This document shows positions 4,139 to 44,465 of a stretch of 45,709 bases of DNA, piece after piece (within the stretch, counting starts at the first letter, position 1; each line of letters opens with the position of its first letter). The stretch spans positions 1 to 45,709 of the forward strand of contig CANNHR010000004.1 in assembly GCA_947505405.1 (NCBI GenBank), written 5' to 3'. The notes under the pieces were generated by a model. That model had not been told where the DNA came from, searched no databases, and saw only the letters and a list, made by a program, of their open reading frames with translations. The DNA comes from Rickettsiales bacterium (GTDB lineage Bacteria; Pseudomonadota; Alphaproteobacteria; Rickettsiales; Rickettsiaceae). The position numbers and the translations under genes are program-made.

Positions 4139-4540
4139 GTGATTGAAGGATATAAATTAGTTCAAATACCTAGTATTAGCGATGATCGAGGCAGTATTTC
4201 CTTTGTCGAACTTGGGCAGCTTTTACCTTTTGTCGTAAAAAGAGTGTATTGGCTGTACGATACGAAGAAAGATCGTGGCGCTCATGCTCATAAAGAATTA
4301 CAGCAATTTATTTTTTGCGCGCACGGCTGTGTTGAGTTTATCTTAGATGATGGAAAGCAAAGACAATCTGTTATACTTGATTCACCTAATAAAGGTCTAT
4401 GCATTACCAAACCTTTATGGCGAGAGTTGACGAATTTTCAGAATAACCCTCAGGTTGTTGTGCTGGTATCTGATATTTATGATGAACGAGATTATATTAG
4501 ATCATACAAGGAGTTTCAAGAATGGATGTTGATTTCTTAG
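4139..4540 (+). CDS. WxcM/FdtA-like sugar 3,4-ketoisomerase (cupin); GTG start
   Basis: 133 aa; DRGAHAHKELQQFIFCAHGCVEFILDDG motif typical of FdtA/QdtA-type dTDP-keto-sugar isomerases. Confidence 0.85.
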   Translation: MIEGYKLVQIPSISDDRGSISFVELGQLLPFVVKRVYWLYDTKKDRGAHAHKELQQFIFCAHGCVEFILDDGKQRQSVILDSPNKGLCITKPLWRELTNFQNNPQVVVLVSDIYDERDYIRSYKEFQEWMLIS

Positions 4541-5649
4541 ATTTAAAAAAAGTCTATCAAGAGCTAAAGCAAGAATTTGACCAACTATGGTATGAGATTA
4601 ATAGCGATAGTTTTTATATAATGGGTAGCAAACTATCCAAGTTTGAACAAGAATTTGCCGAGTATTTGGGGGTCAAGCACCTAATCGGTGTAGGCGATGG
4701 ACTTGATGCGCTTGTATTGAGCCTCCGAGCTTTAGATATAAAGATGGGTGATGAGGTAATAGTGCCAGCTCATACATTTATTGCATCATGGCTTGCTATT
4801 TCAGAAACGGGTGCAATTCCTGTTCCTGTAGAAGTTGATAGTAAAACTTGTCTCATAGATCAGTCTCAAATTGAGCGAGCTGTAACTAAAAAAACAAAAG
4901 CAATCATGCCCGTGCATCTTTATGGTCGTGTTTGCGATATGCAGCAAATTAGAGCTATTGCTGATCGATATAATTTGAAAATTATCGAAGATTCTGCGCA
5001 AAGCCATGGCGCTGTTGATTTAACAAGTGGTAAAAAAGCTGGATCGTTTGGTGATTGTTCGGGATTTAGTTTCTATCCCGGTAAAAACTTAGGTTGTTTT
5101 GGTGATGGTGGGTGTATTTCAACAAATGATTCAGCTTTGGCAGAAAAGATTAGGCTATTGCGCAATTACGGAAGTCCAGTGCGTTATGAGCACAAGATAA
5201 AGGGTGTTAATAGTAGATTAGATGAATTGCAAGCAGGCGTGCTGTCGATCAAGTTAAAACATCTTGATAGTTGGAATGAAAAGCGCCGCCTTGTTGCTCA
5301 GCTTTATTTATCTGAGCTTGCTTGTATTGATGACCTTATCTTGCCAGAATATGATTCGGGACATGTTTGGCATATATTTGCCATTAGGACTGTCAGAAGA
5401 GATGAATTAAAAGAGTTCTTGGGACTAAATGGCGTAGGAACAATTATTCATTATCCAAAGCCTATTCACATGCAAGAAGCTTATAAGGATATGAATATCA
5501 AGCAAGGTTCATTTTTAAATACAGAAAAAATTTGTGCTAGTGTACTTAGCCTCCCGATGCACCCTTATTTGCAAGAGAAAGAAGTGATGTATTGTGCTAA
5601 AATAATAAAGAAATTTTTTGCATATAGTAAATCACCTAATCCAATGTGA
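4522..5649 (+). CDS. DegT/DnrJ/EryC1 PLP-dependent sugar aminotransferase (FdtB-like)
   Basis: 375 aa; EDSAQSHGA and GFSFYPGKNLGCFGDGG with the PLP lysine; overlaps the ketoisomerase ORF by 19 bp. Confidence 0.9.
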   Translation: MDVDFLDLKKVYQELKQEFDQLWYEINSDSFYIMGSKLSKFEQEFAEYLGVKHLIGVGDGLDALVLSLRALDIKMGDEVIVPAHTFIASWLAISETGAIPVPVEVDSKTCLIDQSQIERAVTKKTKAIMPVHLYGRVCDMQQIRAIADRYNLKIIEDSAQSHGAVDLTSGKKAGSFGDCSGFSFYPGKNLGCFGDGGCISTNDSALAEKIRLLRNYGSPVRYEHKIKGVNSRLDELQAGVLSIKLKHLDSWNEKRRLVAQLYLSELACIDDLILPEYDSGHVWHIFAIRTVRRDELKEFLGLNGVGTIIHYPKPIHMQEAYKDMNIKQGSFLNTEKICASVLSLPMHPYLQEKEVMYCAKIIKKFFAYSKSPNPM

Positions 5650-5657
5650 TTTACTAT
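5624..5657 (+). other. Perfect 12-bp stem-loop over the aminotransferase stop codon
   Basis: atagtaaatcac (5624-5635) / gtgatttactat (5646-5657), 10-nt loop, no T-tract following. Confidence 0.6.
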
Positions 5658-5673
5658 AATCGTATGTATTGAT

Positions 5674-7002
5674 ATGAGAATAACTAAATTCTACAAACTA
5701 ACCTTGGCTAATTTGCTTAATTGGGTTGCAATGCGCTTTTATCGCGCGGCAAAAATTGTTACTGGATACATGGTAACTATTGCTATTGGCTTAAATCCAA
5801 GCAGAGAAATTTTTCAAAAAAATTTAGATAATTTAAAGTTAAATAGAGTTGTATCCTTTAAAAAAGCTACTCTACCATATTGCTCTTTTCCAGATGGATG
5901 TAAAAAATTAGCAGCTCGAATAGTTTTTTACAAGGCAGGTGATCTTATAAACTTACTATTACCCAAAGTAATTAATGATGATTTTAAAGTAAATGAAGCC
6001 TATGTTTGCGAGGCAAAACTGCCCGATATTTATTTAGCCGAGATTAGTGATGCGCAAGTTTTTGCTGGCACAGATTTAATTGTTGCCGGTAAAAGCGTTC
6101 TATATGACGAGATTGATAAAAATTTTTTTGATAGGTACGCAGTAAAATCGCCAGTAATATCAAGTGTGTATAGAGAGAGTATTAGTATCAAATGTCCGTT
6201 AAAAACTACAAATATAGACCAGGGGATTCATTTTGCTAAAGATCACTCATTTAACTATTTTCATTGGATAGTAGAATGTTTACCAAGATTAAGTCTTATC
6301 GCTGAACTGGATAAAAATATTCCTTTATTGGTTGATGATGGTTTGCCAGAACAATTTTATGAGGCGCTCGCATTACTAAATCAAGATAATAGAGGATTAA
6401 TAAAACTTGATCGTAATAATGTGTATAAAGTTCATGAGCTATATTACCCATCTCAATTATCAATAGTTCATGATAATTATGATAATCCAATCTACGATAA
6501 AGATGTTTTATATGCCCCTGATGGGATCAAATATGTAAGAGATACTATTTTAAAACAAATAGTATCTCATAATAACTCAATGAGGCGCAGAAAATTATAT
6601 ATCTCTAGAAAAAATTCTGATTATAGGCAATTGCTTAATTCAGATGAGATAGAGGATATGTTAATGACCCTTGGATTTGAAATAATATTTCCTGAGCATT
6701 TATCATTTTTTGCCCAAGTACAGTTATTTTCTCAGGCTGAAATGATAATAGGCCAAAGCGGGGCGGGAATGACTAATTTTATTTTTGCGCCAAAAGATTG
6801 CAAATTGTTGATGATGATGAGTGATATTAGTCAAACTAACCTTCATTTATTCGGTGCTCTTGCTCAATCTTTGGGTATGAGTTTAGAGTACCTTATTGGC
6901 AAATACAAAATAGCTCTGCCTATACCACATAGGCATCAGACCGATTTTTATATTGATACAAGCCTACTGATTAGATACCTAGAGGCGGAAAGCGAGTTAT
7001 GA
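5674..7002 (+). CDS. GT61 (DUF563)-type glycosyltransferase
   Basis: 442 aa; FNYFHWIVECLPRL, RRRKLYISRKNSDYRQLLN, MIIGQSGAGMTNFIFAP. Confidence 0.8.
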   Translation: MRITKFYKLTLANLLNWVAMRFYRAAKIVTGYMVTIAIGLNPSREIFQKNLDNLKLNRVVSFKKATLPYCSFPDGCKKLAARIVFYKAGDLINLLLPKVINDDFKVNEAYVCEAKLPDIYLAEISDAQVFAGTDLIVAGKSVLYDEIDKNFFDRYAVKSPVISSVYRESISIKCPLKTTNIDQGIHFAKDHSFNYFHWIVECLPRLSLIAELDKNIPLLVDDGLPEQFYEALALLNQDNRGLIKLDRNNVYKVHELYYPSQLSIVHDNYDNPIYDKDVLYAPDGIKYVRDTILKQIVSHNNSMRRRKLYISRKNSDYRQLLNSDEIEDMLMTLGFEIIFPEHLSFFAQVQLFSQAEMIIGQSGAGMTNFIFAPKDCKLLMMMSDISQTNLHLFGALAQSLGMSLEYLIGKYKIALPIPHRHQTDFYIDTSLLIRYLEAESEL

Positions 7003-9131
7003 CGAATGTGCCTAAAATTACAGTGCTCATGCCATCCTATAATAAGGCAGCATATATTGCGCAGGCGATAGATTCTGTTTTGATGCAAGAAACGAATTTT
7101 AATTTTGAATTAATTATCATTGATGATAAATCAACAGATGAAAGTTTAAAAATTGCGCGAAAATATCAAACTAACTACCCTGAGTTAATAAGAATTATAG
7201 CTAACAAGAAAAATGAAGGATGCTTGTCTACTACGTTAACAGGTTATGAACAATTGAAAGCTGAATATTTTTGTGTGCTTGATCCTGATGACTATTGGAT
7301 AGGTAAAAACAAACTTCAGAATGCTATTGATTTTTTGGATATGAATAGCGACTTCACTATGTATATTAGCAATACTTATGTAGAGGAGGGTAAAATAAGA
7401 ACACCATATTTTACTATTTTAAAGAATAGGAATTGTAGCTTTGGGCGTTTGCAAAATCTAATATGGGGCCATACTTCAGGTGTGATATTTAGAAATGTAA
7501 TTTTTAAATATGGAGTACCAAAGCTTCTGTATCAACAGATTAAGACAAAAAGGGAAAGCTGTTTTGAGGGTGATTCTTTTAGAAATATTGTTCATTTAAA
7601 AGAAGGTAGAGCGCATTGTACAAATAATATTGAGAGTGTATATAGGGTCACAGGGGATGGCATTTGGACAAGTTATAGCAAATTTCAACAAAATGCTACG
7701 AATGCGGCATTCTTTTTAACTATGTTCTCATATTTTGGCAATCTTAATCCAGATTTTTTTATCACAAAGTGTTTGACGTACTGTAAAAAAAATCTTGAAA
7801 TAATAAAAGATATGTCAAATCAAAAAGAGAATAAGACAATATCTATTAAAGATTTGTCAGATTTTTATGAAATTCTAGCCCAGTACCTAAAATATCAAAG
7901 CGCATTTTTGCCAGATAGCAGTGAGTTATATGAATGTTTTGTTTTTTACCTGCCGAGTAGAATAGTTGGTGGCTATGAATTTTTATTCATTAGATTAGCA
8001 TCTTTTTTGGCTGACAAAATGCATCTCGAGGTCTACTACGTTGACTATGAGGATGGTTTTGCAAAAAGCCAACTAGCTGAAACAAATGTTAAATTTTTAA
8101 AATATTGCAAAGAAAATACAATAATAGATTTGGGCAAACCTTTCTACTTAATAGCTCCGATCACTATGAGCTCTGAAATTCCAAAGTTAAAAAATCCAAA
8201 ATCAAAATTTATATTTTGGTGCGCTCACCCAAAAAGTATTAAATGGCTTAGCTATCGTTCTGGATTAAGGGGAAAAACATTGAATAATTTTCTACTTAAG
8301 TTATACAAAGCACATTCCGTTTGTTTTATGGATTGGGCTTGTTGGAACGCTGCTAGAAATGATTCTTCAATTAATTTTAAAGAAGTGTATGTGCCAGTTT
8401 TTACTACTGAGAAAGAAATCGCTTATAGCGATATAAGCCTTGTTAATCATAAGGATATAAATGTTGGATGGCTTGGTCGTTTAGATAGTGACAAAATTTT
8501 TAGCTTAATAAATGTACTAGATAATCTATATAATTTAGAAACTAATAAAAAGCGAAACATTCATATTATTGGCGATGGAGATAACAAAGCTTCGATTGAT
8601 GTCAAAAAATATTCCGATCAAATTAATATCATCTTTGCATCTACATTAATAAATGAACAACTAAATAAATATCTACAAGAAAATGTTGATATATTATTTG
8701 GAATGGGAATTTCAGTGCTTGAAGCGGCTAGTCTTAGAATACCTTCAGTATTAGTTTTTCTAACGGATGATATTATGCACTCAAATGATTTCTTATGGCT
8801 GTTTGATTCTCAAAAATATACTCTTGGATATTATAAAGAACAAAAAAATAGTGTTAGTGTCAAAACTACCCCATTCAACGAAATTATAGATTCAATATAT
8901 CTTACTAATAAGAAAGAAGAGTTAGGTCTTAGATGTTATAATTATTTTATGCAAAATCACAACATAAATATTACTGTTGGAACTATGTTCTGCTTTATAT
9001 CGAATGTTAATTGTGGGCAAAGCATACAAGCAGCGCTCTATAATAGATTGTTAAGAAAAATAAAAAGAGTTATATATAAGACTGGTGTCGACAGAGCTAT
9101 ATCACGGATTATGGGGTTAATACAAAATTAG
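6999..9131 (+). CDS. Two-domain glycosyltransferase: N-terminal GT2 and C-terminal GT4-like
   Basis: 710 aa; N-term ITVLMPSYNKAAYIAQAIDSVLMQ...DPDDYW; C-term VGWLGRLDSDKIF...HIIGDGDNK...VLEAASLRIPSVLV; 4-bp overlap with the GT61 gene. Confidence 0.75.
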   Translation: MTNVPKITVLMPSYNKAAYIAQAIDSVLMQETNFNFELIIIDDKSTDESLKIARKYQTNYPELIRIIANKKNEGCLSTTLTGYEQLKAEYFCVLDPDDYWIGKNKLQNAIDFLDMNSDFTMYISNTYVEEGKIRTPYFTILKNRNCSFGRLQNLIWGHTSGVIFRNVIFKYGVPKLLYQQIKTKRESCFEGDSFRNIVHLKEGRAHCTNNIESVYRVTGDGIWTSYSKFQQNATNAAFFLTMFSYFGNLNPDFFITKCLTYCKKNLEIIKDMSNQKENKTISIKDLSDFYEILAQYLKYQSAFLPDSSELYECFVFYLPSRIVGGYEFLFIRLASFLADKMHLEVYYVDYEDGFAKSQLAETNVKFLKYCKENTIIDLGKPFYLIAPITMSSEIPKLKNPKSKFIFWCAHPKSIKWLSYRSGLRGKTLNNFLLKLYKAHSVCFMDWACWNAARNDSSINFKEVYVPVFTTEKEIAYSDISLVNHKDINVGWLGRLDSDKIFSLINVLDNLYNLETNKKRNIHIIGDGDNKASIDVKKYSDQINIIFASTLINEQLNKYLQENVDILFGMGISVLEAASLRIPSVLVFLTDDIMHSNDFLWLFDSQKYTLGYYKEQKNSVSVKTTPFNEIIDSIYLTNKKEELGLRCYNYFMQNHNINITVGTMFCFISNVNCGQSIQAALYNRLLRKIKRVIYKTGVDRAISRIMGLIQN

Positions 9132-9139
9132 GTAAAGCT

Positions 9140-9664
9140 ATGATACTGGGAACAAATATTGACCTCCGGCCTGTAGAAATTGAAGATGCTGAATTTATTT
9201 TACTCTTGCGTCTTGATCCAGAATTAAATCAATATCTGTCGCAGGTTGACAGCGACTTAGATAAGCAAAGAGAATGGATAAAAAATTATAGGTTATATTC
9301 CAGAGATCTTTACTTTATTATACAAAACAAGAAACAAAAATCTATTGGAACGATAAGAATTTACGATATTCAGGAGGATGTTTTTTGCTGGGGAAGCTGG
9401 ATTGTTATACCTGAAGCTAGGAAGTACGCAAGTTTCGAATCGGTGTTTTTGTTGTATAGATTTGTGTTTTTTGGACTAGGATTGAATAAAACTAATTTTG
9501 ACGTGAGAAAGGAAAATAAAAGAGCGGTGAATTTCTATCTAAGATTTGGTGCAACTATTTTTGGCGAAACGGATTTAGACTATCTTATGACTTACACAAA
9601 AAATACTTTTCTAGAACGACAAGGTGAGTACATGGCTGTAATTGACAGAATTGCAAAAGCATAA
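9140..9664 (+). CDS. GNAT-family N-acetyltransferase (RimJ/RimL or amino-sugar type)
   Basis: 174 aa; TNIDLRPVEIEDAEFILLLRLDPELNQYL and NKTNFDVRKENKRAVNFYLRFGATIFGE. Confidence 0.8.
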   Translation: MILGTNIDLRPVEIEDAEFILLLRLDPELNQYLSQVDSDLDKQREWIKNYRLYSRDLYFIIQNKKQKSIGTIRIYDIQEDVFCWGSWIVIPEARKYASFESVFLLYRFVFFGLGLNKTNFDVRKENKRAVNFYLRFGATIFGETDLDYLMTYTKNTFLERQGEYMAVIDRIAKA

Positions 9665-9665
9665 C

Positions 9666-9891
9666 TGTCCAAAGTTAACATTGTCATTTCCGCGCAGGCG
9701 GAAATCCAGTAAGTATTGGGGAGCGCGCTATGAATCCGTATTAAGTTTACATCACGGTCTGTAAGCGCAACGGCATACTTGCATTGGTGTAGAAACCACT
9801 GGGTGATCTAGATTTCCGCCTGCGCGGAAATGACAAAAAGAGGAACAAATACCTGAAAGAAACACGGAAATGATAATGTTAACTTCGGACA
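9666..9891. repeat. Nested inverted-repeat element
   Basis: Inner 24-bp perfect IR 9683-9706/9811-9834 (gtcatttccgcgcaggcggaaatc); outer 27-bp IR with 2 mismatches 9666-9692/9865-9891. Confidence 0.8.
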
Positions 9892-9909
9892 CTTATATTA
9901 CTAAAGCAC

Positions 9910-10833
9910 ATGACTAATATTCAAGCTCCCTTAGTATCCATAGCCATTATCACTTACAATAGCAGTAAATTCATCGCCGCAGCCATAGAGAGTGCTTTGG
10001 CACAAGATTACTCAAATCTTGAAATTGTAATATCAGATGATGCGTCAACGGATAATACTATTGAAATTCTTGCTTTATATGTAAGGGATTATCCTGATAA
10101 AATTAGAGTGTTAACTAATAGAGAAAATACCGGTCCTGTAGATAATTGGTTTAAATGCATCTGGGCTTGCCGGGGTAAGTACATAGCTGCACTCGCAGGA
10201 GATGATAAGTTTTTGCCATCAATAATTGCCAAGCAGGTTGCACAGATGGAAAATGACCCAAATAGTATAATTTGCTATACAGACGCATCTGTTTTTGATG
10301 TTAACTCACAGAAAGAGCTGTATCGTCTCAGTAGTAAAAGACCGCCACTTTCTGGTGGGATAGGGGTGGCTTTGTCTGATGCTATATATTACTCACCAAC
10401 AGTGATGTTTAGAAGTGAGTTTAGGCCAAAGGAAAATAGTTTTGCTAAAATAAGATATGGCGCCGATCTAGCTTTTTATAAAGAAGTTATGATATTGGCT
10501 GGTAATAGAGGAAGGATAAATTATATTCCAGAAGTTTTGTATGTATATCAAAAGCATGACTCAAACATTACTGCAACAAATTCAATATATCGCACTGATC
10601 ATATTTATGCTATCAAGATTCTGCAAGCCAAGTATCCTGAGTATGCGTCTTTATTAAATAGTTCTATATATGATTTTTGTTGCGTGGGTTTTTGCAAAAC
10701 TATACTTAAAGCTAGGTTTAAAGAGAGTTGGTTCTTCTTGAAAGAGGGGGTTAAGGCAGCAAATTGTAATCCATTTAAATTTTTTCGAGCTCTAATATGG
10801 GCACTGCGATATTATTATAGTCGTTTAAGTTGA
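9910..10833 (+). CDS. GT2-family glycosyltransferase
   Basis: 307 aa; VSIAIITYNSSKFIAAAIESALAQDYSNLEIVISDDASTDNT, GDDKFLP. Confidence 0.88.
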   Translation: MTNIQAPLVSIAIITYNSSKFIAAAIESALAQDYSNLEIVISDDASTDNTIEILALYVRDYPDKIRVLTNRENTGPVDNWFKCIWACRGKYIAALAGDDKFLPSIIAKQVAQMENDPNSIICYTDASVFDVNSQKELYRLSSKRPPLSGGIGVALSDAIYYSPTVMFRSEFRPKENSFAKIRYGADLAFYKEVMILAGNRGRINYIPEVLYVYQKHDSNITATNSIYRTDHIYAIKILQAKYPEYASLLNSSIYDFCCVGFCKTILKARFKESWFFLKEGVKAANCNPFKFFRALIWALRYYYSRLS

Positions 10834-28439: not shown

Positions 28440-28456
28440 TTGGCACGTTTTATGCT
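28440..28456 (+). promoter_or_regulatory. Putative sigma-54 (-24/-12) promoter of fliK
   Basis: TTGGCACGTTTTATGCT; GG and GC separated by 10 nt; about 40 nt before the ATG. Confidence 0.7.
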
Positions 28457-28496
28457 CCTATAAGGGTGAATATGTAATGAATTCATAGGAAATATA

Positions 28497-30101
28497 ATGG
28501 CTACAGCTGTTTTTGAACAAATGACAATAAGTTCTGGTGAAACAGATAGAGGAAAAAAATCTTCTTTCTCTACAAAAAATCATGGTGCAGGTGAATTTGC
28601 TGATTTTATAAAAGATAAACCTAAACTAATTTATTCTACATCGACAAGAACTGATCATACTCAGAAGACTAGCAAGAATTCACAAGATAAGCAAAAACTG
28701 TCCGAGGATAGGGAGCCTAAAATAGTTGATCAGAAGAAAAGGAGTGAAAAAGAGAGTGATATAGATCTGGAAGCCATGAATCTAGTGGCTCCTATAAATC
28801 AAATGGATCCAATTGATGTAGTTCCTTTAAGCGCAGAAAATGGCGAGTTCATTGTATCTGTAGAAGGTGATAAAAACATATTTGGGCAAGTGTTTGTTGT
28901 TCCTGTGATAAATAATGTCACAAAATCAACGGTGACTGCAAAACCTGAATTAGTTGTATCAGAACTCTCAACAGAAACTAATATTAGAATTATAGATATT
29001 TCTGCAGATAGTAGCGATAACAATAAAGAGAATATAGCTGTTAATACAAACGATAAGATTGTAGCTGTTTTCTCAAATCAAAATAGCTTAGTTGGTTCGG
29101 AATTGTCTGACCAAGAACAGTCTATAATTCACAATATGAAATCATTTAAATTACTTGGAGAGTTTAGTAATGATTTCGATAAGTCGAATAAAAATCTTAA
29201 TACGGCACAAGAAGCAACGTCAAATCAGGTTGCATCAAATGAAAGAGTGGTTGCTCAAAATCTAGGAGTATTGTTAAAATCTGCTGTCGTTGAAAACGCT
29301 CAGTCACTTCAGGCTTCAGCGAGGATTATAAAAGAAGATATTTCAAAGCTGATCACTATAAGTTCGAATTTGCTTTTGGCTGATGAAACTAAACAGGGCC
29401 AATCAGTTCTTGCTAAAATGAACAGAGACTCAGAGTCTAAAATTAGTTCGGTAGCACAAGCTGAACCAGAAATCAAAGAGAATTTTACTGGTTTAGAACA
29501 AGACTTGAGAGAGTCTAGCTCAAAAAAACATAGCATGCTTGAGTCTTTTGGTGGTATGTTAGAAGCTAATGGGGAAGATTTATTCCAAGTTTCTTTTAGA
29601 GAAAATACCCTAAATTTGGGACCAAAAAATGAGGCGCCAAAGCCAGATATGCAAGTATCTTTAGCTGTGAGGGAAGTTCTAAACGTTTCAAATAATGTAG
29701 GAAAAAAGGAAATAACAATTAATTTATTTCCCGAAGCCCTTGGATCTGTTAAAGTTGAGATACTTTCAGTGCTTGGCGAGAATGGTGTAAGAAAAATTGA
29801 AAGCATCAAAATCATAGCTGAGAAAAGAGAGACTTTAGAAATTCTAGAGAAATCGAGAATTGATCTAGAAAAAAATCTAAAAGAAGTAACAAATACAAAA
29901 GAAGAAACTTCACTTCAGTTTGAAATGAACCATCAAGGCAAAGGATCATCCGGAGCGTATTTTGATTCTCAGCAAGAGAGAGATAACTGGATGAATAATT
30001 TTGCTCCGTTAGTGGCAAAAGAAGAACTGACAAATGATTCTATGGAAGGCAGTCAAAGCTTAGGTTACATAACAGAAGATAGCATAAATATAAAGGTTTG
30101 A
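28497..30101 (+). CDS. fliK: Flagellar hook-length control protein FliK
   Basis: 534 aa; low-complexity N-terminal region and C-terminal GKKEITINLFPEALGSVKVEIL typical of the Flg_hook domain; followed by flgD. Confidence 0.8.
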   Translation: MATAVFEQMTISSGETDRGKKSSFSTKNHGAGEFADFIKDKPKLIYSTSTRTDHTQKTSKNSQDKQKLSEDREPKIVDQKKRSEKESDIDLEAMNLVAPINQMDPIDVVPLSAENGEFIVSVEGDKNIFGQVFVVPVINNVTKSTVTAKPELVVSELSTETNIRIIDISADSSDNNKENIAVNTNDKIVAVFSNQNSLVGSELSDQEQSIIHNMKSFKLLGEFSNDFDKSNKNLNTAQEATSNQVASNERVVAQNLGVLLKSAVVENAQSLQASARIIKEDISKLITISSNLLLADETKQGQSVLAKMNRDSESKISSVAQAEPEIKENFTGLEQDLRESSSKKHSMLESFGGMLEANGEDLFQVSFRENTLNLGPKNEAPKPDMQVSLAVREVLNVSNNVGKKEITINLFPEALGSVKVEILSVLGENGVRKIESIKIIAEKRETLEILEKSRIDLEKNLKEVTNTKEETSLQFEMNHQGKGSSGAYFDSQQERDNWMNNFAPLVAKEELTNDSMEGSQSLGYITEDSINIKV

Positions 30102-30105
30102 AACA

Positions 30106-31983
30106 ATGAAAAGCGTAAATAACACACCTACAAGCCCATTAGATAAATCTCCGATCAAATCTGAAGGGTTTTCTAGGTTTCATAACGCAATGCAAGCTGA
30201 TCGTAAGACCAGAAGTCAGATAGAAGGAAGTGATATTTTAAAGGTTCAAGAGAATATAGAGAAGGCCATAGATTTTTCGACGCAGCTAATGCTCGCTGCA
30301 GCAAAAAATATGGGGTTTCCTGATAATGATGGTAGCAATAATAAGTCCAAAGAGATGGCAGATGCAGCAAATTCCATTGCTCAAATGATGGCAACAAAAG
30401 CTTCTATTGGTGCCCAAATGGCAGCTATTGAAGCTCAGAAAAATCCAGCCATAGACCTAATGTCGCTTAAAGATAAAGTCGTTGATTATAGGGATGATAC
30501 AAAAGCCTTCTTTGGTGAGCCTATAACATATAATTATAAAGTTTCGCATGAGGAATCGTCGCCTTCTGCGGTTGTGAATCTTACATTTACGGTTCGTGAT
30601 AAGAATGGCATTGCTGTTAAAACAGTAAGGCAAACTGGCAAAGTGGGCGAACATCAGTTTATATGGGACGGCAAGAATGATAAAGGGCAAATGATGCTTC
30701 CTGGTCAGTATACTCTCGATTTAAAGGCCGATGGAAGAAAAAATGTAAATGGAACTCAAGTTACATTCCCAGTCAAGGCGGGAGCTGTTCTGTCTGGTGT
30801 TGTAGAGTCTATTAAGCTTGAAAAAGGAGTTGCTGTTGGTGTTATGATCGACGGTAAATTAATCAGAAGAGATCAGATTACTGACGTAAAAGACTTTGTC
30901 AAACCTAAAGAAGATAATCAGCTGACACCTGATTTGATAGGTAAGCGTGTTGAAATGAATTTCTCTCGCGCAGAAGTTAAAAATGGTTCTTTAGAAGTCT
31001 ATTTTAAGAATCATGTTGAAAATCCAGGCAAAATAACTGTTAAAATTTACGATGAGAGCAATAAATACATAAAAACGCTAGAGAATTCGGATAAAATTGC
31101 TGTAGGTGTAGGTAAATTTACGCTACCAAACCATGGGCTTGAAGATGGACACTATAACGTCAAAGTCTATGTTGAAGATATTAGTGATGAAGCAAATCCA
31201 GTTGATGTTGAATTGGAATACAAAACAAAACTATTAGTTGCCGGGGTTAACAGCCGCGCTGGTACATTTATGTCGATTGAAGAGGATATATACAATCCAC
31301 ATAACATCGACTCAATAGTGGGGAATTATATAACTCCGCTTAATCAGAAGAGGCAAGATTATCTTGGAGCTAGAGTTACTTACAGAGATGATTTCTTCAA
31401 ATATGCGCCGGGAAGCGATCCAGCAACATTTAAAATGATGAAGCCAGAAGAAGACGGAGTCATTTCTTATGGTCAAATGGCGATTTATGATCCTGCGACG
31501 CAAGAGCTTGTTGCAACGATAAAGGGAGAGTATAGAGTGTTTGATCTTTTGAGTGATCCAAGCAAACTATTAGTAAGGCAGTATTTGCAACCGAACTACA
31601 ATACTGGAGATTATAATGCTCTAAGTGTACAGGAACGAGTTGAAGTAAATCGCCACATTGAAGCTGAATTACTTACCGGTAACTTAGTTTTGCAAGAGCA
31701 GTATCAAGAAGACTATGACAATGGCAAAGTTCCAATCACTTTCCCTGTGTGGGACGGTAGATTGAGTGATGGTACAAGGGCTATCGAGGGCAAAGAGTAT
31801 AGACGTGAATTTACACCAATATATTCGAGACCAGATAATTCAATTTTTTCTGGACAAACGGATCGTGAGTTAATGATAGCTACGGTTGAAACTGTCGATG
31901 AAGAAGGCGGAAAATTGTCATTGAACTTAGTTGGTGGAAAAGTCATTCCTGAAGAGTTAGTACTGCGTTCTGAAGGGAAATAA
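30106..31983 (+). CDS. flgD: Flagellar hook capping protein FlgD, C-terminally extended
   Basis: 625 aa; NLTFTVRDKNGIAVKTVRQTGKVGEHQFIWDGKNDKGQMMLPGQYTLDLKA is a FlgD Ig-like signature. Confidence 0.82.
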   Translation: MKSVNNTPTSPLDKSPIKSEGFSRFHNAMQADRKTRSQIEGSDILKVQENIEKAIDFSTQLMLAAAKNMGFPDNDGSNNKSKEMADAANSIAQMMATKASIGAQMAAIEAQKNPAIDLMSLKDKVVDYRDDTKAFFGEPITYNYKVSHEESSPSAVVNLTFTVRDKNGIAVKTVRQTGKVGEHQFIWDGKNDKGQMMLPGQYTLDLKADGRKNVNGTQVTFPVKAGAVLSGVVESIKLEKGVAVGVMIDGKLIRRDQITDVKDFVKPKEDNQLTPDLIGKRVEMNFSRAEVKNGSLEVYFKNHVENPGKITVKIYDESNKYIKTLENSDKIAVGVGKFTLPNHGLEDGHYNVKVYVEDISDEANPVDVELEYKTKLLVAGVNSRAGTFMSIEEDIYNPHNIDSIVGNYITPLNQKRQDYLGARVTYRDDFFKYAPGSDPATFKMMKPEEDGVISYGQMAIYDPATQELVATIKGEYRVFDLLSDPSKLLVRQYLQPNYNTGDYNALSVQERVEVNRHIEAELLTGNLVLQEQYQEDYDNGKVPITFPVWDGRLSDGTRAIEGKEYRREFTPIYSRPDNSIFSGQTDRELMIATVETVDEEGGKLSLNLVGGKVIPEELVLRSEGK

Positions 31984-31997
31984 ATTATACAAATAGT

Positions 31998-32014
31998 TTG
32001 GCACTGTTTTTGCT
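31998..32014 (+). promoter_or_regulatory. Putative sigma-54 (-24/-12) promoter of fliD
   Basis: TTGGCACTGTTTTTGCT, essentially consensus; GG-GC spacing 10 nt. Confidence 0.78.
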
Positions 32015-32096
32015 TAACTAGAATTAATATATTTGATTTGTGCACTAGAAAGACATAGAGTACACTGAAATTAATCACTAATTTGACGAGATTTTT

Positions 32097-33941
32097 ATGA
32101 GTATAACAGACGCTATTGGTAAAGGTATAGGACTATCAAGTATGCTTGGTCCTCAGGATCAGTTTATAAAAAAAGCAACTGAACAGCTAGAATTATCAAA
32201 GGTTGAGACACAAGATAAAACCGAAATCAAAGAAACAAAGCTCGGAGAAATTTCTCAACTTCAGAAAGTATTAAGTGAAATAAAAGCAAAAGCTTCTTTG
32301 CTTACTAATCCGCTTCAGGCTGGCTTTGATAGAAAAACATCGAGCACAAGCACGCAAGATCTTGGCGGTGCAGATGACTATATATCAAACATTCGTGTTG
32401 ATGACAAAGCTCATGTGGGCGATACGAAAATAGCCGTACAGCAAGTGGCAACAGCTTCAGAGCTTGTACTTGCTTCGGCGCCAGGTGTAGGCTTTGCGAA
32501 AGGCGTTGCACTAAATAAAACTGGTAATATAACATTAACTGTCAATGGCACAGCGCGAGTTGTAAATATTATTGCTGGAGATACAGTTGAGCAAATTACT
32601 GGAAAAATTAATCACGTATTTTCTGCAGCTGGAGATGAATTCGAGGCTTTTCTTGTAGAAGGAGATAATAATACTGCCTTTATTGAAGTTAGAGCAAAAG
32701 ACACTGGAGCTGGAGCTATAGCAGTTACTTATGACGATGGGGTGGGCGGTTTTGTCCTTGGCGGAGGTGATCTACATTCGCAAAGTAACGTGGTTGGTGT
32801 TAATGCAATAATACATATAAATGGTATTCAAAGAACGCAGGCTTCTAATAAGTTTATAAACGTTGTCGAAGGCTTGTCATTTGAACTATCTGGTAGAGTC
32901 AATGCAGCTAACGGGGCTCCTGCGAATCTTGTTTACGGTGGCTTGAACTACAGTACGGTAAAAGTCAAAGAAGATCATGCTAACGTGAAAAAGATGATTG
33001 TTGATTTTGGTAACTCTTTAAATGAATTATCATATATCATTGCTAAAAACCAACAAGCTACGCGCTCAGTTACTCATGACCAATTTGCTGATCCTACTGA
33101 GCCTATGAGTTCATATGATAGCTCAGATTCGCCTCTTCGTGGGTCTTCATTAATGACCGAGGCAATGGAAATTTGGGAAAGATTTACAACTACAAAAGCT
33201 GGTGGAGTTGGTGACATCACATCTATTTACGAACTTGGAATGGGCTTACAAAAGTCTACTAAAGATGGTGTGGGGTACGAGGTGCTTTACTTTGAAGACG
33301 AAAGCGTCTTCACCAAAAAATTTGAAGATGATTTTACAGCGGTTCGCAGGTTCTTTATTACTGATACTAAAATAACTCCGACTGTTGGTAACTTAGCAAG
33401 TCTACAGTATTTGCCTGGTGAATTCGATAGACAAATAATAGATTCATCAGTTGTTGGTACAGATATTGTGACATCCACAACTTTCGTGGCTGGAGCTGTA
33501 ACAGTTTTTACAGCCACAGTGAATGGAATAATTCTAAATGCTAATATTGTTCATAATCCAGGAACAGGTCGGTACAATGTTTCTTTTGATGAAGACTCAG
33601 TTTTATACGGGATAGAATTTTCAATTGATCCTAAAACAGCAGTGAATGCTGTTGAGCTTAACACGATAAATTATACACCAGGCCTTGCAAATCTTATCCA
33701 AGAAGATGCAAGAAGAATGATTAGTGACGATGGTATGAATGGTACGACTATAGGAGAGGCCAATTTAATTCAAGAAGAGATGAAGAAATTAAGCGATGCA
33801 TTTGCCAAAGTCGAAGAAGAGTTAAAGAAGCTCACTGCTAAATTAGAAAGCGAATATCATGCAATAGCTCAAATGGATATGATGAGTGCGATTCAAATGG
33901 CGATGATTGAAGCCGCTCTTTCAAGCTTAACTGAAGCTTAA
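32097..33941 (+). CDS. fliD: Flagellar filament cap protein FliD
   Basis: 614 aa; N-term KIAVQQVATASELV, internal NITLTVNG and GDTVEQITGKIN elements, coiled-coil C-terminus; followed by fliS. Confidence 0.85.
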   Translation: MSITDAIGKGIGLSSMLGPQDQFIKKATEQLELSKVETQDKTEIKETKLGEISQLQKVLSEIKAKASLLTNPLQAGFDRKTSSTSTQDLGGADDYISNIRVDDKAHVGDTKIAVQQVATASELVLASAPGVGFAKGVALNKTGNITLTVNGTARVVNIIAGDTVEQITGKINHVFSAAGDEFEAFLVEGDNNTAFIEVRAKDTGAGAIAVTYDDGVGGFVLGGGDLHSQSNVVGVNAIIHINGIQRTQASNKFINVVEGLSFELSGRVNAANGAPANLVYGGLNYSTVKVKEDHANVKKMIVDFGNSLNELSYIIAKNQQATRSVTHDQFADPTEPMSSYDSSDSPLRGSSLMTEAMEIWERFTTTKAGGVGDITSIYELGMGLQKSTKDGVGYEVLYFEDESVFTKKFEDDFTAVRRFFITDTKITPTVGNLASLQYLPGEFDRQIIDSSVVGTDIVTSTTFVAGAVTVFTATVNGIILNANIVHNPGTGRYNVSFDEDSVLYGIEFSIDPKTAVNAVELNTINYTPGLANLIQEDARRMISDDGMNGTTIGEANLIQEEMKKLSDAFAKVEEELKKLTAKLESEYHAIAQMDMMSAIQMAMIEAALSSLTEA

Positions 33942-33976: not shown

Positions 33977-34333
33977 ATGAGTCCTTTAGAAAAATATAAA
34001 GCTACAGCTGCAGTAACTAGCAGTAGCAATAACCAGTTGATATTTATTTTTGACGAGGTTCTTAAGTTATTATTTTCTGCTCAAAAAGCTCTTGAAGAAA
34101 AAAAACATGAAATTAAGTTTAAAGCGCTTACCAGAGTTATAGAAGTGTTTTATATACTCAAAACAGGAATTGATCCAGAAGCGATGGACGAGAGAACTAA
34201 AGCAATTGATTCTTTTTACGGATCGACAATTCATCAACTTGAGAATATAAACATGAAAGGAGAAAATCCAGAAGAGCTCCAACCAATCATCGAAGCTATT
34301 TCAGAAATTCGTGCAGCATTAGTAAGTTCGTAA
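33977..34333 (+). CDS. fliS: Flagellar export chaperone FliS
   Basis: 118 aa; YKATAAVTSSSNNQLIFIFDEVLKLLFSAQKALEEK helical pattern typical of FliS, directly after fliD. Confidence 0.82.
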   Translation: MSPLEKYKATAAVTSSSNNQLIFIFDEVLKLLFSAQKALEEKKHEIKFKALTRVIEVFYILKTGIDPEAMDERTKAIDSFYGSTIHQLENINMKGENPEELQPIIEAISEIRAALVSS

Positions 34334-42356: not shown

Positions 42357-44465
42357 ATGTTTAATATACTCAAAAGGATCACAGACTATTCGCACTTAGC
42401 GCTTGCTTCTGCAATTGTTGGGATTTTGATGGTCCTGCTCTTTCCAATTCCAACCGGATTACTTGATTTTTTATTAGCTTTGTCAATTGGCATATCTTTT
42501 GTAATTCTGATGACGACATTATTCATTCAGAAACCTCTTGATTTAAGTATGTTTCCAACGATTCTGTTAGTCACAACTCTTTTGAGATTATCGCTAAACA
42601 TTGCCTCTACTAGGTTGATTCTTTCAAGGGGGCATGAAGGCCCAGACGCTGCTGGCCATGTAATCAAAGCTTTTGGTGGTTTTGTGATGCAAGGGAATGT
42701 AGTTATTGGGCTCATTGTGTTCTTAATATTGACTTTGATCAACTTCATCGTCATTACAAAAGGTTCTGGTCGTATTGCTGAAGTAGCGGCAAGGTTTAGC
42801 CTTGATGCAATGCCTGGTAAGCAAATGGCTATCGATGCTGATTTGGCAGCCGGGTTGGTTGATGAAAAAGTAGCTAAGTCACGCCGTAAAAATCTTGAAG
42901 ATGAGAGTACATTCTTTGGCTCTATGGATGGTGCTAACAAGTTTGTACGTGGTGATGCAATTGCTGGATTGATCATTACTTTTATCAACCTGATTGGGGG
43001 AATGATAGTTGGTATTTTACAAAAAGACTTGTCTTTCGACGTAGCGGTTAAAACCTATACAGTGCTTACCATTGGTGATGGGTTAGTAACACAAATTCCG
43101 TCGCTGATTGTTTCATTATCTGCTGGTTTGCTTGTTACTAAAGCTGGTACTTCTGGCTCCACAGACAAATTGCTTTTTGGACAGATTGGTCAATATCCAC
43201 AAGCTTTAGTGATGACAGCAATCGTTACTGGCCTTATGGCATTCTTACCTGGACTTCCCTTTATTCCATTCTCAATAATTGCAGCTGTTATAGGGGGGAG
43301 CGCATATGCGCTAAACTCAACAAAAAATCAAGAATTATTAGCTGGAGTTTATGGTTCTGGAGGAGGTGCAACCTCTAAGATTGGATCAGATTCCGGGGAG
43401 GGTGGTAGTAGCCAAGAACAGGATAAATCCGAGAAGATATCGGATGCGCTTCATCTTGATTTAATTAGGTTAGAAATAGGTTATGGTTTAATGTCGCTTG
43501 TTAATGCAAGTAATGGCCATAATTTAACTGAGCAAATTAAAGGTTTGCGTAAGCAAATTGTCCAAGAGTACGGCTTCGTGATGCCAGCTGTTAGAATTCA
43601 GGATAACATTCAACTAGATACTGACGTGTATGTCATTAAAATCAAGGAGCTGGAGGCTGGTCGAGGTTTAGTACGTCCAGGTAAGCTGATGATTATGGAT
43701 CCACAAGGTACCGATCTGGATATTCCAGGCGAGAGCGTCAAAGAACCTGCGTTTGGATTACCAGCAAAATGGATCGATGAAAGTTACAAAGAAGAAGCGT
43801 TGTTTCATAATTGTACTGTTGTCGACCCTTCTACTGTTATTACCACACATCTTACAGAGCAAATTAAGGAAAATATTACTGATTTGCTTTCATATAGTGA
43901 GACGCAAAAATTGCTCGATAAAATGGCTGATGAGCACAAACAATTGTTAAAGGATGTTATACCAGATGTGGTCTCAATTGCTTCACTTCAGAAAGTATTG
44001 CAAAATTTACTATCCGAGATGATTTCAATCCGAGACATGCCTAGTATTTTGGAATCAGTAGCAGATTCTGCCAGAGCAAATAAGAATTTAACAGCTATGA
44101 CTGAGGCAGTTAGAGTACAACTATGCAGACAGATTTGCCATCACAACACCAATCGAGAAGGATTTATTCCAATAATTGCGTTATCTGCAGAGTGGGAGAG
44201 GAGTTTCATTGAAAATTTAATAGATGATGGCACAGGGGATAAACAATTATCAATGCCTCCATCAAAATTACAAGAATTTGTTACTAAAGTGAAAAAAGCT
44301 TATGATGATCAAGCGTTGAAAGGGTATGTCCCAGTACTCTTAACCAGCGCCTATACCAGGCCATATGTGCGTTCTGTAGTAGAGCGCTTTAGGCCAGCTA
44401 CGGTTGTAATGTCGCAGAATGAGATTCACTATAAGGCAAAAATTAGGACACTCGAGTCAATATAG
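42357..44465 (+). CDS. flhA: Flagellar biosynthesis / type III export protein FlhA
   Basis: 702 aa; LLRLSLNIASTRLILSRG, FSLDAMPGKQMAIDADLAAGLVDE, RGDAIAGLIITFINLIGG. Confidence 0.96.
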   Translation: MFNILKRITDYSHLALASAIVGILMVLLFPIPTGLLDFLLALSIGISFVILMTTLFIQKPLDLSMFPTILLVTTLLRLSLNIASTRLILSRGHEGPDAAGHVIKAFGGFVMQGNVVIGLIVFLILTLINFIVITKGSGRIAEVAARFSLDAMPGKQMAIDADLAAGLVDEKVAKSRRKNLEDESTFFGSMDGANKFVRGDAIAGLIITFINLIGGMIVGILQKDLSFDVAVKTYTVLTIGDGLVTQIPSLIVSLSAGLLVTKAGTSGSTDKLLFGQIGQYPQALVMTAIVTGLMAFLPGLPFIPFSIIAAVIGGSAYALNSTKNQELLAGVYGSGGGATSKIGSDSGEGGSSQEQDKSEKISDALHLDLIRLEIGYGLMSLVNASNGHNLTEQIKGLRKQIVQEYGFVMPAVRIQDNIQLDTDVYVIKIKELEAGRGLVRPGKLMIMDPQGTDLDIPGESVKEPAFGLPAKWIDESYKEEALFHNCTVVDPSTVITTHLTEQIKENITDLLSYSETQKLLDKMADEHKQLLKDVIPDVVSIASLQKVLQNLLSEMISIRDMPSILESVADSARANKNLTAMTEAVRVQLCRQICHHNTNREGFIPIIALSAEWERSFIENLIDDGTGDKQLSMPPSKLQEFVTKVKKAYDDQALKGYVPVLLTSAYTRPYVRSVVERFRPATVVMSQNEIHYKAKIRTLESI

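Follow-up and report, generated by a model that had tools for sequence, protein, structure and literature searches.

Background

In Alphaproteobacteria the control of the flagellum by RpoN, FlbD and FliX is well known; in the hierarchy of Caulobacter the early genes are driven by CtrA, and flgF is sigma-54-dependent. The flagellins of Caulobacter depend on RpoN as well (PMC3930126, PMC3096577), and its FlbD is missing some of the key residues of phosphorylation (PMC3096577). RpoN-dependent flagellar genes, opened by an activator of the NtrC family, are also found in Vibrio, Pseudomonas, Helicobacter and Campylobacter (PMC3930126). According to a survey of sigma-54, Rickettsia and Ehrlichia belong to the organisms that do not have this factor (PMC3162934). 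Two studies of genome evolution in Rickettsiales cover flagella, and rpoN and FlbD are absent from their main text (PMC9352585, PMC10847448); moreover, we found no open-access paper (supplements excluded) linking Rickettsiales to FlbD as a flagellar regulator, or to sigma-54 together with flagellar genes.

We hereby analyze a stretch of 45,709 nucleotides (the window), which is contig 4 of the assembly of a Rickettsiaceae bacterium (1.47 Mb, 98 contigs, 93.5% complete). An earlier note on this stretch had proposed that sigma-54-type elements precede two of its flagellar genes and that an RpoN-dependent flagellar hierarchy has been kept in this organism. The presence of rpoN, of an FlbD-type activator and of FliX, and the conservation of the promoters, support this proposal: on the evidence of sequence comparison we assign a probability of about 0.9 to the reading that both elements are genuine RpoN-dependent promoters and that this bacterium has kept a late-flagellar circuit of the Caulobacter type.

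Results and discussion

Two promoter elements in front of fliK and fliD

Two pairs of flagellar genes are found on the forward strand of the window. The first is composed of fliK (28497..30101), which encodes the flagellar hook-length control protein (Pfam Flg_hook, E 3.5e-6, just under the curated cut-off), and flgD (30106..31983), which encodes the hook-assembly scaffold (FlgD_ig, E 1.9e-19; the NCBIfam FlgD match is weak). The second is composed of fliD (32097..33941; FliD_C, E 6.6e-17), encoding the filament cap protein, and fliS (33977..34333; FliS, E 2.1e-13), encoding the flagellin export chaperone. The early gene flhA, for the export-gate protein (42357..44465, same strand; FHIPEP, E 3.9e-254), provided a negative contrast. 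FlgD, with 625 aa and a long C-terminal extension in which no Pfam domain was found, and FlgE, with about 1017 aa (L102:2619-5669), are unusually long in this genus. Elsewhere in the window a 1647-aa autotransporter (PF03797; 11604-16547) adjoins a cluster of sugar aminotransferase and glycosyltransferase genes (4139-10833).

Both elements lie exactly where they had been reported, with exact GG-N10-GC spacing, on the forward strand: TTGGCACGTTTTATGCT at 28440..28456, 42 nt from the start codon of fliK, and TTGGCACTGTTTTTGCT at 31998..32014, 84 nt from that of fliD. The exact TGGCACNNNNNTTGCW occurs in the window only in the fliD element, and the fliK element deviates from the consensus at one position (ATGC instead of TTGC, at -12). 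The two thus combine the spacing with the TGGCAC/TTGC consensus upstream of a gene, as is characteristic of sigma-54 (-24/-12) promoters, and their sequence, statistics, distance and conservation point to them as the RpoN promoters of fliK-flgD and fliD-fliS; transcription is predicted to start at about 28466-28468 and 32024-32026, respectively. Because the gaps within the pairs are short (4 nt between fliK and flgD, 35 nt between fliD and fliS) and no good -24/-12 site of their own was found for flgD or fliS in the upstream scan, each pair was considered a single transcription unit. The units have two separate promoters and, as had been suggested, may also be separately timed.

In our motif score GG and GC are required and the other consensus positions are scored, up to a maximum of 11. 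Against a dinucleotide model of the window, which gives 2.25e-6 sites per base at a score of at least 10.5, about 0.2 sites are expected on both strands and exactly two were observed, the fliK and fliD elements. The best score upstream of flhA is 8 of 11, so that this gene has no good site.

RpoN, FlbD and FliX

The earlier note had named the absence of rpoN as grounds for abandoning its proposal, and it had called for a search for an activator of the NtrC/FlbD type; both genes are in fact present. The rpoN gene (G000:C26) is an intact open frame of 478 aa, whose product has all three sigma-54 domains (activator-interacting, core-binding and DNA-binding) and the RpoN box ARRTVAKYR, and scores above the cut-off of TIGR02395; the closest named RpoN records are MAGs of Rickettsiaceae. 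A strong sigma-54 activator domain occurs in two proteins of the genome, an FlbD-type protein and NtrX. For the first, NCBIfam FlbD is the best family by a wide margin, and we call it FlbD-type because its score of 588.7 bits is under the equivalog cut-off of 750 bits, in a model that is tuned to Caulobacter FlbD. Its AAA+ domain has intact GAFTGA and Walker A motifs; its receiver is, by inspection, degenerate, having neither the acidic pair nor the lysine that are found in phosphorylated receivers, and its Fis-type HTH was recognized by reading the sequence, not by a Pfam match. The activator thus appears competent, and its identity across relatives ranges from 95 to 53%. FliX is also encoded, by an ORF of 139 aa that scores above the Pfam FliX cut-off (E 3.9e-21).

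An rpoN match above the family cut-off was obtained in 29 of 55 relatives. FliX was found in 26 of these 29 and in 0 of the 26 rpoN-less genomes, and rpoN and FlbD agree (both present or both missing) in all of the 35 genomes tested, counts that are not independent of phylogeny. Of these 35 genomes, 20 bear rpoN, and all 20 have an FlbD orthologue (identity of at least 50%); the other 15 have matches at the level of NtrX only, or none. Within the genus, flgD was found in 6/7 rpoN-bearing versus 0/7 rpoN-less genomes, and there are congeners in which rpoN, flbD and fliX are missing along with flgD. Regulators and flagellar genes are therefore present or missing together, in agreement with the idea that the hierarchy has been lost in non-flagellated relatives. 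In one genome that is 73% complete (G011), flgE, fliD and a flagellin-type gene (L171, L205, L152) are present and the element is kept upstream of flgE, and a search for rpoN, flbD and fliX found none of them; either the assembly is incomplete or the circuit is decaying. A MAG record titled Rickettsia typhi (CAMBEC010000005.1; L188) carries rpoN, with an RpoN identity of 92%, and flagellar genes; since Rickettsia is listed without sigma-54 (PMC3162934), the species label is very probably wrong.

The patchy presence of these genes inside one genus could also be read as a recent gain of RpoN and its flagellar targets by transfer, rather than as retention from the Rickettsiales ancestor, and in the RpoN tree, where support is weak and branches are long, the family requires two changes. 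We consider such a gain, which would alter the history of the circuit and not its mechanism, unlikely: the RpoN sequences of the family cluster, with the exception of the long-branch G042, and those of the seven congeners fall into a single starred group; rpoN, flbD and fliX are located on separate contigs and yet are missing together; and, according to published reconstructions, the ancestor of Rickettsiales had a flagellum, which was then lost on multiple occasions (PMC9352585, PMC10847448).

A very improbable alternative is that the promoters are real and are driven through NtrX, or some other activator, instead of FlbD. NtrX of Rickettsiales has a related AAA+ domain and is encoded in the same genome, where it scores above its NCBIfam cut-off and has an intact receiver domain; as a difference from the Caulobacter system, no further strong activator-type protein was found besides FlbD and NtrX. 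However, NtrX lacks the GAFTGA motif and, unlike FlbD, persists in almost every relative without rpoN; for these two reasons it is unlikely to work with sigma-54, and a role as sigma-54 activator is improbable in this genome. FlbD and FliX, by contrast, track rpoN.

Genome-wide matches and the putative regulon

The genome contains 13 exact matches to TGGCAYNNNNNWTGCW (TGGCAY-N5-WTGCW), five of which are intergenic and ahead of late flagellar genes, namely fliK, fliD, flgE (on G000:C3) and a pair of flagellin-type genes (on G000:C11 and C34); another seven fall within coding frames, and the last overlaps a small antisense ORF at its start. A possible non-flagellar promoter at G000:C1:55044 was rejected because a small ORF on the opposite strand, rich in lysine, overlaps it with its ribosome-binding site and start; no RNA family or tRNA was found at this site. 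A candidate at G000:C32:16203 is located within a coding frame, and the ORF that begins 90 nt further on has no known domain.

The expectation that the motif exceeds the genome-wide background did not hold for raw counts, as relatives lacking rpoN have as many matches; counting was discarded as a test on these grounds, and also because the reversed-pattern control is not codon-neutral. With respect to position upstream of genes, the motif does exceed the background. Among the upstream regions of this genome, 5 of 113 score at least 10, all of them at fliK, fliD, flgE and the two flagellin-type genes (0 of the 108 others), a comparison that is partly circular, since three own-genome stretches, though not the window itself, were picked for the motif. 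Since the enrichment of loose matches in the window is mild (36 observed versus 23 expected with up to two mismatches) and genome-wide counts are uninformative on rpoN, the evidence for the elements is positional and comparative.

No -24/-12 site is present upstream of the early genes examined (flhA, fliL, flgB and fliE), and none was found upstream of flgF. Among the flagellar genes located, RpoN promoters thus precede hook and filament genes and not early genes, flgF being the exception to the late-gene pattern.

The flagellin-type genes (L104:4419-5630 and L105:4152-5345) are divergent, being 49% identical. Because their Pfam calls are weak and below threshold, we turned to structure prediction (mean pLDDT 67.8); all PDB matches listed for the predicted fold were flagellins or flagellar filament proteins. 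Standard annotation would miss both genes, which fall under the Pfam flagellin cut-off. A 551-aa protein without recognized domain (L103:5447-7099; G000:C58) is encoded divergently from a histidine kinase gene; our guess is that it might be a second FliK-type protein.

Conservation and two possible promoter subtypes

The element is conserved upstream of fliK in 9/9 Rickettsiaceae genomes, of fliD in 5/5 congeners with upstream sequence, of flagellin-type genes in 9/11 cases, and of flgE in all 10 genomes of the family, the last count leaving out the more distant families (G036-G044), where matches begin inside the gene. In the 32 sites listed, T1, A5 and T13 are invariant, positions that are scored and not required, at variance with GG and GC, which the scan demands. 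The lowest-scoring sites are those of fliK in G014 (score 9) and G019 (9.5). The flanks of the conserved sites have diverged among relatives. The position before orthologues is therefore conserved beyond background, as is expected of sigma-54 (-24/-12) promoters. That the motifs are instead matches due to chance or coding composition, the genes being read from ordinary sigma-70-type promoters, is scarcely credible: loose matches are indeed common, in the window and in the genome (64 with up to one mismatch, mostly inside genes), also where rpoN is missing, but the only two strong sites of the window both precede flagellar genes, and the elements are conserved at similar distances upstream of orthologues with 43-80% protein identity.

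An unplanned observation concerns the -12 region. In the genus, hook promoters (fliK, flgE) have ATGC in 12/12 cases and cap and filament promoters (fliD, flagellin-type) have TTGC in 13/13; the sixth base is C in 12/12 hook-class and T in 12/13 filament-class promoters. Outside the genus ATGC is kept in 5/7 hook promoters. This split may reflect the simple inheritance of each promoter, or it may be a device ordering hook versus filament.

Proposed mechanism and comparison with known systems

By analogy with Caulobacter, the RpoN-holoenzyme would bind the -24/-12 elements of fliK-flgD, fliD-fliS, flgE and the two flagellin-type genes, and it would be unable to open them alone. FlbD, with its AAA+ domain, GAFTGA motif and degenerate receiver, would open these promoters through ATP hydrolysis and would do so without phosphorylation, as in Caulobacter (PMC3096577, PMC3930126). 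FliX would gate FlbD and couple its activity to assembly; expression of the hook and filament genes would then follow the building of the basal body and the export gate. The early genes examined, flhA, fliL, flgB and fliE, and also flgF, are not preceded by a promoter of this kind.

As in Caulobacter, RpoN, an FlbD with degenerate receiver and FliX are present here, and hook and flagellin genes are behind -24/-12 promoters. Unlike in Caulobacter, flgF has no site and the regulon apparently comprises no more than about five promoters; furthermore, FlbD enhancers (ftr) were not found by a de novo search near the promoters, which returned no shared palindrome above the AT background. The use of RpoN and of an NtrC-family activator is shared with Vibrio, Pseudomonas, Helicobacter and Campylobacter, which rely on activators of the FleQ/FlrC/FlgR type, whereas here the activator is FlbD-like and accompanied by FliX.

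A further and more tentative proposal, which we hold to be possible though somewhat less than evenly probable, is that sigma-54 has been reduced here to a single purpose, with one activator (FlbD) and about five hook and filament promoters in two conserved subtypes: (i) TGGCAC-N5-ATGC for the hook (fliK, flgE); (ii) TGGCAY-N5-TTGC for cap and filament (fliD, flagellins). These subtypes would possibly help to set the order of hook before filament. If sigma-54 indeed has no other task, the lack of rpoN in Rickettsia would be accounted for by the loss of the flagellum.

Conclusions

What is new here is a putative RpoN-FlbD-FliX circuit in a family whose best-known genus, Rickettsia, is reported to be without sigma-54. 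In Rickettsiaceae this regulatory layer appears to have been kept along with the flagellum, sigma factor, activator and structure being lost together, which suggests that Rickettsia is without rpoN as a side effect of having lost the flagellum. As a marker set, rpoN, flbD and fliX could predict which Rickettsiaceae make a flagellated stage.
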